Positions 3,510 to 15,925 of a stretch of 51,469 nucleotides of DNA are shown in pieces. Both the position numbers and the translations under genes were made by a program. How positions within the stretch are numbered: the stretch's first letter is position 1; the number at the start of each line of letters is the position of its first letter. Below the pieces are notes generated by a model. It searched no databases. It was not told the origin of the DNA and saw only the letters and a list, made by a program, of their open reading frames with translations. The stretch is from Bacteroidales bacterium (GTDB taxonomy: Bacteria; Bacteroidota; Bacteroidia; Bacteroidales; Muribaculaceae), in the NCBI GenBank assembly GCA_020859845.1, contig JAJBVL010000038.1, positions 1-51,469 on the forward strand, in the 5' to 3' direction.

Positions 3510-4757
3510 ATGGCAAAAGTTAAGCCTTTCAAGGGTGTACGCCCTCCCCGCGAACTCGTGGAGGAGGTGGCATCGCGCCCCTATGACGTCCTCAACAGCG
3601 AAGAAGCTCGTCAAGAAGCGGAGGGCAACCCTCGCTCGCTCTACCACATCATCAAGCCGGAGATCGACTTCGGCCCTGAAGTGGATGAGCACGACCCGCG
3701 AGTATATGAGCGTGCCGTGGCCAACTTCCACGCTTTTCAAGACAAAGGATGGCTCGTACAAGACCCCGAAGAACACTACTACATCTACGCTCAAACGATG
3801 GATGGCCGCACCCAGTATGGCATCGTCATAGCTGCCAACGTGGCCGACTATATGGAGGGCCGTATCAAAAAGCACGAGCTCACGCGCCGCGACAAAGAGG
3901 AGGACCGCATGAAACACGTGCGCGTCAACAATGCCAACATCGAGCCCGTATTTTTTGCTTTTCCCGACAATGAAGTGCTCGAAAAAGTGATTAAGACTGT
4001 CACCGCCGAAAAGCCCGAATATGACTTTGTGGCCCCTGATGGCTTTGGCCACCACTTCTGGGTAATCTCCGACCCTGATATCATTAACACCATCACTGAG
4101 GAATTTGCGCGCATACCCTATCTCTACATCGCTGATGGCCACCACCGCACAGCTGCCGCTGCGCTTGTAGGCAATGAAAAGGCTCAGCAAAATCCTCACC
4201 ATCGCGGCGACGAGGAGTACAACTACTTCTTAGCAGTTGCTTTCCCAGCAAGCCACCTCAAGATTATCGACTACAACCGCGTGGTGCGCGACCTTAACGG
4301 CCTCACGCCAGAGGAGTTTTTGAAGCGCCTTGAGAAGGACTTCGTAGTGGAAGACAAAGGTACAGAAGTGTATCATCCCTCAAGCCTCCACAACTTCTCG
4401 CTCTATCTTGGCGGCCATTGGTATTCCCTGACAGCACGCCCTGGACGCTACGACGACAACGACCCCATAGGAGTGCTCGATGTCACGATCTCGAGCGACC
4501 TCATCCTACGCGATATTCTCGGCATCACCGATCTGCGTAGCGACAAGCGCATCGACTTCGTAGGAGGAATCCGTGGCTTGAAAGAGCTGAAACGCAGGGT
4601 GGATTCAGGAGAAATGGCCGTGGCCTTGGCTCTCTACCCCGTGTCGATGAAGCAATTGATGGATATCGCCGATAGCGGTAATATCATGCCACCCAAGACC
4701 ACCTGGTTTGAGCCCAAGCTACGTTCAGGCCTCGTAATCCACAAGCTCGATGAATGA
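3510..4757 (+). CDS. DUF1015 family protein
   Basis: KPFKGVRPPRELVEEVASRPYDVLNSEEAR and YIADGHHRTAAA motifs typical of DUF1015. Confidence 0.85.
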   Translation: MAKVKPFKGVRPPRELVEEVASRPYDVLNSEEARQEAEGNPRSLYHIIKPEIDFGPEVDEHDPRVYERAVANFHAFQDKGWLVQDPEEHYYIYAQTMDGRTQYGIVIAANVADYMEGRIKKHELTRRDKEEDRMKHVRVNNANIEPVFFAFPDNEVLEKVIKTVTAEKPEYDFVAPDGFGHHFWVISDPDIINTITEEFARIPYLYIADGHHRTAAAALVGNEKAQQNPHHRGDEEYNYFLAVAFPASHLKIIDYNRVVRDLNGLTPEEFLKRLEKDFVVEDKGTEVYHPSSLHNFSLYLGGHWYSLTARPGRYDDNDPIGVLDVTISSDLILRDILGITDLRSDKRIDFVGGIRGLKELKRRVDSGEMAVALALYPVSMKQLMDIADSGNIMPPKTTWFEPKLRSGLVIHKLDE

Positions 4758-11136: not shown

Positions 11137-12948
11137 ATGAGCAAAACATCAGAGCCCCAACTTCCATCGGACCATATACCATTGCGGCCTATTAGAGATT
11201 TCATCTCTGCCCAGGACCCGCGCGACCGTCATTTCTTCATTCCCTCTTACCAACGAGGATATCGCTGGGAGCCCAAAGAAGTGAAAGCGCTTCTTGACGA
11301 CATCAAAGAGTTTGTCTTAGAGCAGTCGCTAAGCCAGGATGTACGCCGGCCATATTATTGTCTTCAACCTATAGTGGTAAAGCCACGCGATATCGACGGC
11401 GTGGCCTATTGGGAGGTTATAGATGGCCAGCAACGGCTCACTACCCTTTGGTTTATTCTCAATGAACTCAAGAAAGGCACCGACGACTACGCCGACGACG
11501 AGCTCTTTACAATCACTTACCAGACTCGCCCCAACCTCAACCTCGATAATATCTCTCCGCGCCAAGACATTGATAGCTTCTACATGAACCGTACTAAAGA
11601 CACCGTCAGGTCATGGATAGCTTCACGGCGTCGGCTAAAGGATGTAGCCCTTAGCGACATCCGTAAATGCCTTTTCGTATCGGCCGATACGGGATCGGTC
11701 AAAATCATTTGGTATGAGGATAACAACCGCGAGGAGATAGACGCCATCAAGACCTTCAATAGTATCAATAAGGGGAAAATAGGCCTTACGAGCAGCGAGT
11801 TGGTAAAAGCTCTCTTCTTACTTTATTATGACAACGACAACGTAATGAGCCATGAAGTTGCCACCGAATGGTATCGGATGGAGAAGGAACTTCAAGACCC
11901 CTCGTTCTGGAGTTTTCTGGCAAATGCGGATTACCAACCCGATACTCATATCGACCTGCTCCTCGACCTAATGACCAACCGCTCTCCAGAAGATGACAGC
12001 GACTATGTATATAAGCGCTTCCAAGCTCTCTTTGACGATACCACAGGAGAGGAGAAGATAGTGGGAGTGGATAAGACGAGGATTTGGGCAGAACTTAAAC
12101 GAATATTTGGTGTGCTTGTCTTCTGGTATCAGGAGCCAGAAATCTACCACTATGTAGGCTATGTGGTAGCCATAGGTACTCCTCTCTCTGAAATATACAA
12201 TTCTACTCAAGGCCTACGCAAAGACGAGATTGCCTCCACGCTTAAGAATATAATCCGCGACAAGCTTTCACTCAACGCCGACTCTCTGCGTCAACTCTCC
12301 TACGCCTCCCCTAAAACGTGGCCTACACTTTTGCTCTTCAATGTCCTGACTTCGGCATCGATGGGAAGTGGGCGTTTTGACTTCCTTGCGTTTAAACAAG
12401 TGTATAAAAAGCGCTACACTTACCATAAAGAGCATATAGCCTCCAAGACCGACAACTCCCTGACGCGCAATGAAGATAAACTTCTATGGTTAGGGAGTCT
12501 GGAGAGCCTTACGCGCTATGTAGCGAGTAGCAAGCTGAAAATCTGGCAGAGCCTTCTATCCCAAGCCAAAGAGATAGCTAAGGATATTGAGGGCAAAAAG
12601 GAATCGGCGCAAGAGAGCTTTAAGAGAATCTACGCCGAGGTGGTAGGCATTGTGGAAGCGGGAAGTATTGACGAAGGCGACAAAGATAATATCAGCAATC
12701 TGGCTCTGCTGGATTCTCATCTCAATCAAAGCTATGGCAATGCCCTCTTCCCCACAAAGCGTCAGCGTATCATCCAAAGCGACAAGATGGGCAATTTCAT
12801 TCCCCCGGCAACTCGCAACGCTTTCTTGAAGTATTACTCCGACAAAGATACAAATTCAACCCATTGGGACACTATTTGGAATCAAGATGATGCCACCGCT
12901 TATCTTGATCAGATGGTGACTACCTTAAGTGATGGTTTCCTATTATAG
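11137..12948 (+). CDS. DUF262 domain protein with DUF1524/HNH-like C-terminal region (GmrSD-like)
   Basis: IPSYQRGYRW and VIDGQQRLTTLWF (DUF262). C-terminal YHKEHIASKT and ISNLALLDSHLNQSYGN resemble the DUF1524 EHI...NLxLLxxxlN signature. Confidence 0.8.
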   Translation: MSKTSEPQLPSDHIPLRPIRDFISAQDPRDRHFFIPSYQRGYRWEPKEVKALLDDIKEFVLEQSLSQDVRRPYYCLQPIVVKPRDIDGVAYWEVIDGQQRLTTLWFILNELKKGTDDYADDELFTITYQTRPNLNLDNISPRQDIDSFYMNRTKDTVRSWIASRRRLKDVALSDIRKCLFVSADTGSVKIIWYEDNNREEIDAIKTFNSINKGKIGLTSSELVKALFLLYYDNDNVMSHEVATEWYRMEKELQDPSFWSFLANADYQPDTHIDLLLDLMTNRSPEDDSDYVYKRFQALFDDTTGEEKIVGVDKTRIWAELKRIFGVLVFWYQEPEIYHYVGYVVAIGTPLSEIYNSTQGLRKDEIASTLKNIIRDKLSLNADSLRQLSYASPKTWPTLLLFNVLTSASMGSGRFDFLAFKQVYKKRYTYHKEHIASKTDNSLTRNEDKLLWLGSLESLTRYVASSKLKIWQSLLSQAKEIAKDIEGKKESAQESFKRIYAEVVGIVEAGSIDEGDKDNISNLALLDSHLNQSYGNALFPTKRQRIIQSDKMGNFIPPATRNAFLKYYSDKDTNSTHWDTIWNQDDATAYLDQMVTTLSDGFLL

Positions 12949-12957
12949 ACTATCAGT

Positions 12958-15372
12958 ATGAAAGACTATACCCTTCTTGAACTCCTGGAGAACTACAATA
13001 TCGTGATCCCCCCGATACAACGCGATTACGCTCAGGGGCGCACCTCGCAACGCATCACCGATCTACGTCGCGACTTTCTGGATGATATTTTTCAAGCTCT
13101 GTCAGACGACAATGCCCCAGCCCTACGACTCAACTTTGTCTACGGAGATGGCGACGATGGCATGACCTTTATCCCCATCGACGGTCAGCAGCGACTCACC
13201 ACCCTTTTTCTCCTTCACTGGATGTTGGCGCCCGACGACCAGCTATCAGCGTTGCGCCACGAAGATATGCCCACTCGCCCGAGTAGATTTTCTTATCAAG
13301 TGCGCACGTCGTCAAAGGACTTCTGTGATCGTCTTGTCAACAACCCTACCCATACGATTCATCGTCCCGACGCCGAGACTTTGTTATCCTCTGCTATTAA
13401 AAACGAGAGCTGGTATCTATGGGAATGGCGAAGTGACCCCACCATTCAAAGCATGCTCAAAATGATCGACGATATAGAAGCTCGAATCACTCCGGAGATG
13501 AAAGACGATATGTGGCAGCGACTCATAAGTGGAGCTATAACATTCAACTGGCTTCCGCTCCACAACTATCATCGTGTCAACGACCTATTTGTAAAGATGA
13601 ACGCTCGCGGACGTGAGCTCTCTGCCTTTGACAAGTGTAAATCGACCATCGAGCAACTCCTCTATAAAGCAGCTTATAAAGCCGCCTTCAAGGACCGCGA
13701 TGAGAAAGCTATGGAGCGCACGCATCAATGGGGCTGCAAAGTTGACAATCAATGGATGAATGGATTTTGGAAAGAGTTTAGCATAGCCATCTCCGACGAT
13801 GACGATGAAAAGACTTCGTCATATAAACTGCGTAGCATTGAAGAGTATTATCTACGCTTTCTCCGCCAGATGATGACGCTTCCTCTCTATCTTAACATCA
13901 CCAATCTCTGGGCAGCCAAAAGGAAAAGCCAGGAGATTTTAAATGATTTGTGTCAACGAGCCACGACCGGCGACCTTACACGCTTATTGACGGATATGGG
14001 ACAAGCCCAACTCCTCCCTCTCTTCTATTTTAATCAAGTAGAACGGTCAATCGACGGCATGATGGCCAATGAAGGCGAAATATTTCAGAGGACAAAGTTT
14101 CCGGTTTGGCTCGTGCCCAAAGATGAATCTCTTCTCCACCTGTTTACCCTCGCCGATGATGAGCTCACCTATCGCCAGCGGACGTTGTTGGTGGCGCTTC
14201 AATGTTTTACTCTGCTTTGTCCTTACTCGGAATGGGATAGAGAACTGACAGCATGGGTAAGGATCCTTTCCAATCTCATCACTCAGACCGACATCGACAG
14301 CGAGAACTTTCCCCGAGTATGTCAAGGGATATATGAGATGGCCCACAAAGTCTTAAAACCACGAAGAGATAGGAAGGATAAAGACAGCAGTGTGGAATGG
14401 TATTTCGCCCATGGAGGACGCATAAAGGCAATGCGCGGAGTGCAAGTTGAGGAAGAGCAAAAGAAAGCCGCCTTGATGCTCCGTTCACCTGCTTGGCGCG
14501 CTGCTATACTCCGTGCCGAGGGTCTCGACTGTCTGCGAGGGTGTCTGCGCATGCTTCTCTCCGACCTTGATTATACCCATACTACCGACGATGTGGATTT
14601 TTTTAATACGAAGGTTGACAACCTCGCTGCCTTGTTTCCTATCAATAGTGAAACAGGCAGAACCGCAATGACCAGCCACGCTGCCGAGGACAATCTACTT
14701 CTTCGCTCTTTCTTGGGACATCTGAAACGCGACGAATCGATATGGCGAAGCTATCCTATCTTCAACAACGACCTCACTACATGGCGATTAATCCTCACAG
14801 GTGCCTGGCCCGACCATAAAGACAATATGGAGGATTGGCGCCAAGCACTAACAGCAATTCTTTCTAAGGCCGAGATTTCCATCCCTGAGCAGCCCGAGCG
14901 CAATTATGGCTGGATCAAGACACTTGTGGAAGATAAGCCTATGCTTGCTCGCGTAGTGGAGATGCGCAATTGCTGGATACGCACCTATCACAACCATACA
15001 GCCATCTATCCAAGCGCTGCCGGTATTTTCTTCGATACGCCCCTACGTGACATGGTGATAAATGAGCTGGCTTCTCAACGCTATGGCCACTTTGAGCTGC
15101 GTTATGGATCTCTGATTGAGGGCACCACCTACATGGTGGCCAACGCTGTGGGCTTCGTGCTCGATGGAGTGGCTTATGAATGGAATGAATATACCAATAA
15201 GGTATATGCCGAACGTCGCTCCGTGTATCTAAATCCTCCCGATGGCAAAGAGTGGGAAGGGCATTCCTTCTTACCCGAGCCTCAGAACGGCCTTGATATA
15301 CCTACTTATATCAGCACCTATTTTATCCCTGCCCTTAAGGCTCTATCGCCTATTTTAGTCACTAAACAATAA
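12958..15372 (+). CDS. DUF262 domain protein, large, no obvious HNH motif
   Basis: IVIPPIQRDYAQGR and PIDGQQRLTTLFLLHWML; starts 9 nt after the upstream DUF262 gene. Confidence 0.8.
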   Translation: MKDYTLLELLENYNIVIPPIQRDYAQGRTSQRITDLRRDFLDDIFQALSDDNAPALRLNFVYGDGDDGMTFIPIDGQQRLTTLFLLHWMLAPDDQLSALRHEDMPTRPSRFSYQVRTSSKDFCDRLVNNPTHTIHRPDAETLLSSAIKNESWYLWEWRSDPTIQSMLKMIDDIEARITPEMKDDMWQRLISGAITFNWLPLHNYHRVNDLFVKMNARGRELSAFDKCKSTIEQLLYKAAYKAAFKDRDEKAMERTHQWGCKVDNQWMNGFWKEFSIAISDDDDEKTSSYKLRSIEEYYLRFLRQMMTLPLYLNITNLWAAKRKSQEILNDLCQRATTGDLTRLLTDMGQAQLLPLFYFNQVERSIDGMMANEGEIFQRTKFPVWLVPKDESLLHLFTLADDELTYRQRTLLVALQCFTLLCPYSEWDRELTAWVRILSNLITQTDIDSENFPRVCQGIYEMAHKVLKPRRDRKDKDSSVEWYFAHGGRIKAMRGVQVEEEQKKAALMLRSPAWRAAILRAEGLDCLRGCLRMLLSDLDYTHTTDDVDFFNTKVDNLAALFPINSETGRTAMTSHAAEDNLLLRSFLGHLKRDESIWRSYPIFNNDLTTWRLILTGAWPDHKDNMEDWRQALTAILSKAEISIPEQPERNYGWIKTLVEDKPMLARVVEMRNCWIRTYHNHTAIYPSAAGIFFDTPLRDMVINELASQRYGHFELRYGSLIEGTTYMVANAVGFVLDGVAYEWNEYTNKVYAERRSVYLNPPDGKEWEGHSFLPEPQNGLDIPTYISTYFIPALKALSPILVTKQ

Positions 15373-15377
15373 TTCTT

Positions 15378-15875
15378 ATGAGTACTCCTGCATTCCTCTC
15401 CTCTCTGCCTGAAGGCCCTTCAATCCAAGAGCGCTTCGACGAAATGAGCCAAGTGGTGGCTCTCCCCTCTAAGGTCAACGGCCTTCAAGATTATCAATCA
15501 TTTCGGCAGCTGGTGATAGACCATATCCTCCTTCCCCAAAATATTATTAGCTTAGACGTGGCCGATATTATGTCGATGGCTCGAGAGGAAAAGGCCATTC
15601 TCGATGCCTCTATCTGCTATACCTCCTCGCCCACTACATTCAGAAAAGCAGTAGATGAGACTATGAAAGCGCTCTGCGAAGCTCATCCTGAGCTCCAATT
15701 GGCGGGAGTGTGCCTCAATATAGAGTCGCGTAGCGATGTCACTATGTTAACAATGGCTGATCTACACACTCTCTTTGAAGAAAATCCTACGGTCGACGTG
15801 ATGTTTGGCATCGCCAAGGCCCAGCCTACCCTCGAGTGGGAAATGATCGTGACGCTGATATGTAAATTTTTATAA
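15378..15875 (+). CDS. Small protein resembling a standalone FtsZ C-terminal domain
   Basis: LVIDHILLPQNIISLDVADIMSM resembles FtsZ IxDLITxPGLINLDFADVxxVM; LAGVCLNIESRSDVTMLTMADLHTLFEENPTVDVMFGIAKAQPTLEWEMIVTLICKF resembles the FtsZ GVLxNITGGxDLxLxEV...VIFGxxxDxxLxDExxVTVIATGF block. No GTPase domain (no GGGTGxG). Confidence 0.55.
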   Translation: MSTPAFLSSLPEGPSIQERFDEMSQVVALPSKVNGLQDYQSFRQLVIDHILLPQNIISLDVADIMSMAREEKAILDASICYTSSPTTFRKAVDETMKALCEAHPELQLAGVCLNIESRSDVTMLTMADLHTLFEENPTVDVMFGIAKAQPTLEWEMIVTLICKFL

Positions 15876-15886
15876 GTTTTGGCTGG

Positions 15887-15909
15887 CCTATGAAATGATT
15901 TTTCATAGG
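15887..15909. promoter_or_regulatory. Perfect inverted repeat CCTATGAAA-TGATT-TTTCATAGG (candidate operator or transcript hairpin)
   Basis: 9-bp arms and 5-nt loop read directly; no T-tract follows. Confidence 0.6.
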
Positions 15910-15917
15910 TGGGTGTG

Positions 15918-15925
15918 TAATTTTG
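15918..15925 (+). promoter_or_regulatory. -7 element TAATTTTG upstream of the AAA ATPase
   Basis: Matches TAnnTTTG, 19 nt before ATG 15945. Confidence 0.45.

Follow-up and report, generated by a model that had tools for sequence, protein, structure and literature searches.

In the window, the whole stretch of 51,469 nucleotides that was analysed, which comes from a gut bacterium, two DUF262 genes (DUF262a and DUF262b) with a probable role in phage defence are followed by a short gene, here called Z (product P0001), and then by a stem-loop, a promoter-like element and an AAA ATPase gene (Table 1). Five intergenic bases separate the stop of DUF262b from the start of Z. Both DUF262a and DUF262b carry a GmrSD_N domain with the DGQQR motif. 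The GmrSD_C match at the end of DUF262a is weak (E 0.0093, 16.3 bits against a cut-off of 23), with an EHIAS motif at 432. The original prediction had read the Z product by eye as an FtsZ C-terminal domain standing alone. The ORF is present as claimed, and the quoted peptide blocks are found in its sequence.

Table 1. Coordinates of gene Z, its parts and its neighbours in the window.
Feature	Position	Strand	Remarks
DUF262a, GmrSD_N	11137..12948	+	E 1.3e-28; DGQQR at residue 96; weak GmrSD_C/HNH-like C-terminal match
DUF262b, GmrSD_N	12958..15372	+	E 5e-21; DGQQR at residue 75; recurs together with DUF262a as a two-gene unit
Z (P0001), predicted free-standing FtsZ C-terminal-domain protein	15378..15875	+	ATG to TAA, 165 aa
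Z residue map			1-38 family-variable; ~39-51 helix H7-like; 52-61 T7 loop; 62-164 H8-S7-H9-S8-H10-S9-S10
Z codons D60 and D63	15555..15566	+	equivalents of the FtsZ T7-loop/H8 catalytic aspartates
Z codon H103	15684..15686	+	family signature, present in every member but not a conserved FtsZ position
Stem-loop between Z and the AAA gene	15882..15914	+	z -3.35; without a clear T run
TAATTTTG, Bacteroidota -7-like (TAnnTTTG) element preceding the AAA gene	15918..15925	+	consensus match only
AAA ATPase, 693 aa	15945..18026	+	nearest model in PADLOC is IetA, with a score well short of the NCBIfam cut-off

The stem-loop is the probable end of a DUF262a-DUF262b-Z transcript. The AAA ATPase was rejected as a third partner, because the stem-loop and the promoter-like element lie in between and its examined homologues are not close to Z or DUF262b; it is probably a separate unit. 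Full-length homologues of this ATPase, approximately 43% identical, occur in several Muribaculaceae genomes. Assignment to the IetAS defence system was likewise rejected, since the gene scores 78 bits against an IetA cut-off of 510 and the next gene resembles a DcaP porin, not the IetS protease.

Direct searches with P0001 against Pfam, NCBIfam, PADLOC, PHROGs and PDB sequences return no match, and the protein falls below detection by Pfam's own FtsZ_C model (PF12327). A first scan of genome contigs with P0001 is also blank. Because these single-sequence searches are empty, the reading by eye required an indirect test through homologues. In a search of 198 family genomes, P0001 has two homologues, one in genome G168 (29% identity, E 2.9e-13) and one in G035 (27%, E 3.4e-6), both from other genera than the window's genome. 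The G035 homologue aligns to full-length FtsZ ORFs of other Bacteroidales, within their C-terminal domain. A three-sequence profile matches full FtsZ, in the same register, in at least most of 396 family genomes and recovers at least six further free-standing members, all from genus g23; both counts are lower bounds. With P0001, the eight homologues form a family of nine intact ORFs in nine genomes and four genera. The profile of all nine has a match in 181 of 228 Bacteroidales genomes and matches FtsZ in nearly all of the 181, with a best E of 7e-15 and an E of 2.3e-11 for the host's own FtsZ. Tandem runs of two or three full-length ftsZ-like ORFs are present in genomes G227, G301, G402, G340, G219, G264, G267, G280 and G389.

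The reverse comparison is congruent with these matches. Scored against an HMM of FtsZ C-terminal domains taken from 31 Bacteroidales ORFs, all nine free-standing proteins rank above every one of 9,900 shuffled control sequences, and P0001 has an E of 6e-4. In hhalign comparisons with the Bacteroidales FtsZ C-terminal domain, P0001 alone scores 3.3e-5, P0001 paired with its DUF262-linked sister (L002) 3.4e-9, and all nine sequences 3.2e-19. The same three queries have no match to the FtsZ N-terminal domain (P > 0.04), and the 165 residues contain no GGGTGTG domain. The predicted homology, the T7/H8 register drawn by eye and the missing GTPase domain are thus all borne out. Judged from its sequence, Z is a diverged, free-standing FtsZ C-terminal domain (H7, T7 loop and H8 to S10) that lacks the GTPase domain. 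It is not an FtsZ, because the N-terminal GTPase domain is absent.

The single-sequence AlphaFold2 model of P0001 is poor (pLDDT 38); its best PDB matches are FtsZ, though not significant. In the model built from P0001 and four homologues, which is also weak (pLDDT 46), the elements follow the order H7, H8, S7, H9, S8, H10, S9, S10, as in the FtsZ C-terminal domain. All 50 of the 50 listed PDB matches to this model are FtsZ (best E 4.8e-5). Foldseek also scores residue similarity, so these fold matches are not fully independent of the sequence.

Family members are 14-29% identical to P0001. In the nine-protein alignment, M1, D60, D63, D76, H103 and G144 are invariant. In a second alignment, which adds FtsZ to the nine, F164 is also invariant, and the invariance of D76 is less sure because Asp 76 of P0001 is shifted by one relative to the other members. 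Apart from M1, the two alignments agree on only four residues that never vary in the family: D60, D63, H103 and G144. D60 and D63 align with the aspartate pair that FtsZ carries in its T7 loop and H8; both are conserved in nine of nine family members and in 31 of 31 FtsZ sequences. Many other FtsZ-invariant positions have drifted in the free-standing family, for example the equivalents of R86, S97, P98 and E125. Eight of the nine members have another residue in place of the T7-loop asparagine that never varies in FtsZ. In the unrooted tree, the FtsZ sequences form one group (95/93 support) apart from the free-standing sequences, and the branches are very long. The two DUF262-linked Z proteins are sisters in this tree; two independent linkages are therefore not claimed. 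In one close pair of family members dN/dS is approximately 0.2, a value estimated from few changes.

The Z family is sporadic in genera g1, g4 and g8. No free-standing copy outside the Muribaculaceae is present among the matches listed for the nine-sequence profile in the 228 Bacteroidales genomes, and tblastn of phage and plasmid sequences returns no Z homologue. No natural protein made of the FtsZ C-terminal domain alone was found in the literature, and no Pfam, NCBIfam, PADLOC or PHROGs model recognises P0001. The family appears to be undescribed and is known so far only from the Muribaculaceae.

The gene order in the window is DUF262a-DUF262b-Z. In G168, which carries the closest homologue, it is Z-WYL-DUF262a-DUF262b on a single strand. 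The original prediction tied the FtsZ-like protein to DUF262 genes, and a search for a homologue beside such genes yielded this one other genome. Elsewhere the linkage does not hold. Seven of the nine family members are not beside DUF262 genes, but adjoin or lie near GDE_C glucosidase, SIR2, PAD_porph, YgjP or other genes, and six of them, all from g23, adjoin ordinary metabolic genes. The DUF262a-DUF262b pair, at times accompanied by a WYL gene, is itself common, with 38 loci in 37 of 198 family genomes; Z is nearby at two of these loci (the window and G168) and absent at 36, where some contigs are short. The link is real but narrow: it survives as an adjacency that recurs once with a different gene order, and fails as a general rule. 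Because the linkage is missing from seven of nine members and 36 of 38 loci, the FtsZ domain is an occasional accessory of the DUF262 pair and not a core part. At genome level, Z and DUF262b co-occur in six of nine Z genomes compared with 37 of 198 genomes overall (P 0.0016), a comparison confounded by relatedness. Within g23, Z is present in four of four DUF262b carriers and in two of four other genomes, which is too few to tell.

Several other features recur around the DUF262 pairs. WYL-domain genes occur beside or near the pairs at five loci (L053, L055, L069, L070 and L045) and are 38-40% identical to the WYL gene of G168, which suggests a three-gene unit of WYL, DUF262a and DUF262b. Short PLD-like proteins of approximately 170 aa (PLDc_2 in L069) are found near pairs at L069, L078, L079 and L086. 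Ahead of its C-terminal half, which then reads into DUF262b, the DUF262a gene of G168 (L045, ~3526-3809) changes frame close to a stretch of seven G; phase variation, decay or an assembly error may explain this. Two PAD_porph-family genes, one beside Z (L049, 10486-11319) and one overlapping the end of DUF262b (L057, 7403-8251), are 49% identical. A shared PAD_porph accessory of Z and DUF262b was rejected as weak, because such genes are widespread in the family and as a rule not close to DUF262.

In FtsZ, the T7 loop enters the GTP pocket of the neighbouring subunit and starts hydrolysis (PMC8456036). DUF262 proteins are established phage-defence NTPases (PMC10952713), and DUF262 clustering near GmrSD genes has been reported (PMC4619093). 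The reading put forward here, tentatively and at somewhat under even confidence, is that Z would be an FtsZ synergy-loop module, recruited as an accessory of the DUF262 system, and would dock on host FtsZ, cap it or modulate it, so that division is slowed or stopped. Z would act at the longitudinal interface of FtsZ, where its T7 loop, bearing D60 and D63, would face the GTP pocket of a host subunit. There Z would cap the protofilament end, drive GTP hydrolysis, or both. In the genomes of the window and of the closest homologue, it would have been added to the GmrSD-like NTPase/nuclease unit DUF262a-DUF262b. The likely setting would be a response to phage or stress, with division arrest occurring alongside DUF262 activity or being triggered together with it.

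This proposal draws on the retention of D60 and D63 among very few invariant positions at 14-29% identity, while other FtsZ-invariant positions drifted, and on the predicted element order together with the profile and fold matches. The accessory role is consistent with a DUF262 linkage that persists across two genera, in which Z is 29% identical and the gene order differs, and with the sporadic presence in g1, g4 and g8 expected of an accessory gene. A function of the proposed kind is in keeping with the dN/dS of the close pair, few as its changes are, and with the defence role of DUF262 proteins. The loss of the T7-loop asparagine in eight of nine members calls for caution on catalysis, and catalysis in trans by Z may be impaired. 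Nor would a defence role be general, because the six g23 members adjoin metabolic genes. D60 and D63 could also have been kept for folding, for example as H8 caps, which counts against action at the FtsZ interface.

The best alternative, although an unlikely one, is that Z is a decoy or guard that imitates the FtsZ surface bound by phage inhibitors, and that binding is relayed to the DUF262 pair, leading to attack on DNA. In FtsZ, the synergy-loop surface of the C-terminal domain is where T7 Gp0.4 binds, and CapRel-Ebc is activated by the resulting Gp0.4-FtsZ complex (PMC13423816); a free-standing Z would correspond to that same surface. The two DUF262-linked members are fast-evolving sisters, as an arms race predicts. 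However, most family members have no adjoining effector, conservation is centred on the two catalytic aspartates and not on the whole inhibitor-binding face, and there is neither a phage or plasmid homologue by tblastn nor a known trigger. It is similarly doubtful that the fold was repurposed as an interaction scaffold, for example a specificity or regulatory subunit of DUF262a or DUF262b, with no link to FtsZ or division. The very low identity, the loss of the T7 asparagine, the gain of the family-specific H103 (with an Asp near 76) and the mixed genomic contexts are in line with such a scaffold. A scaffold would not need the invariant D60 and D63, though, and a DUF262-subunit role cannot be general when family members also occur without DUF262 neighbours. 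The invariant T7-loop aspartates speak more for a role at the FtsZ interface than for a generic interaction domain.

A decaying, functionless fragment of an ftsZ duplicate, or a chance alignment, is very improbable. The protein is short and its single-sequence match weak, but the ORFs are intact in nine genomes of four genera with shared invariant residues, the one close pair has a dN/dS near 0.2, and the family is separate from FtsZ in the tree. Chance is excluded by the shuffle-controlled HMM and the order-wide matches of the nine-sequence profile.

Z shares with the FtsZ C-terminal domain (PF12327) the T7/H8 aspartates, a significant profile match and, as predicted by the weak model, the H7-T7-S10 order and top fold matches to FtsZ. 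Unlike FtsZ, it has no N-terminal GTPase domain, C-terminal linker or tail peptide, and its family has mostly lost the T7 asparagine (eight of nine), carries its own signature H103 and lies below Pfam detection. The upstream genes resemble GmrSD type IV restriction (DUF262/DUF1524) in the GmrSD_N domain and DGQQR of both and in the weakly GmrSD_C-like end of DUF262a. They differ from GmrSD in that two DUF262 proteins stand side by side with an FtsZ C-terminal-domain gene and the GmrSD_C match is below the Pfam cut-off. With CapRel-Ebc there is already a case of immunity sensing phage attack at the synergy-loop surface of FtsZ, but that system relies on the full FtsZ of the host and on a fused toxin-antitoxin, whereas here a separate gene for the domain lies beside DUF262 genes and sensing is hypothetical. 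The small blockers of FtsZ assembly SulA, MciZ, CbtA, Kil and Gp0.4 would be functional analogues of Z. They are not FtsZ homologues, whereas Z is a piece of FtsZ itself.

In a broader picture, which is improbable, a free-standing FtsZ synergy-loop domain would be linked to the pair of DUF262 nucleases as their bait or brake, and immunity would bear its own copy of a phage-attacked FtsZ surface. If the Z family acts on FtsZ, the regulator would have been made out of its own target and would put to the test whether a T7 loop still works when a separate protein supplies it. If Z is bait, it would broaden the recent observation of immunity that responds to phage attack on FtsZ. Both readings are testable, as the gene is short and amenable to point changes.
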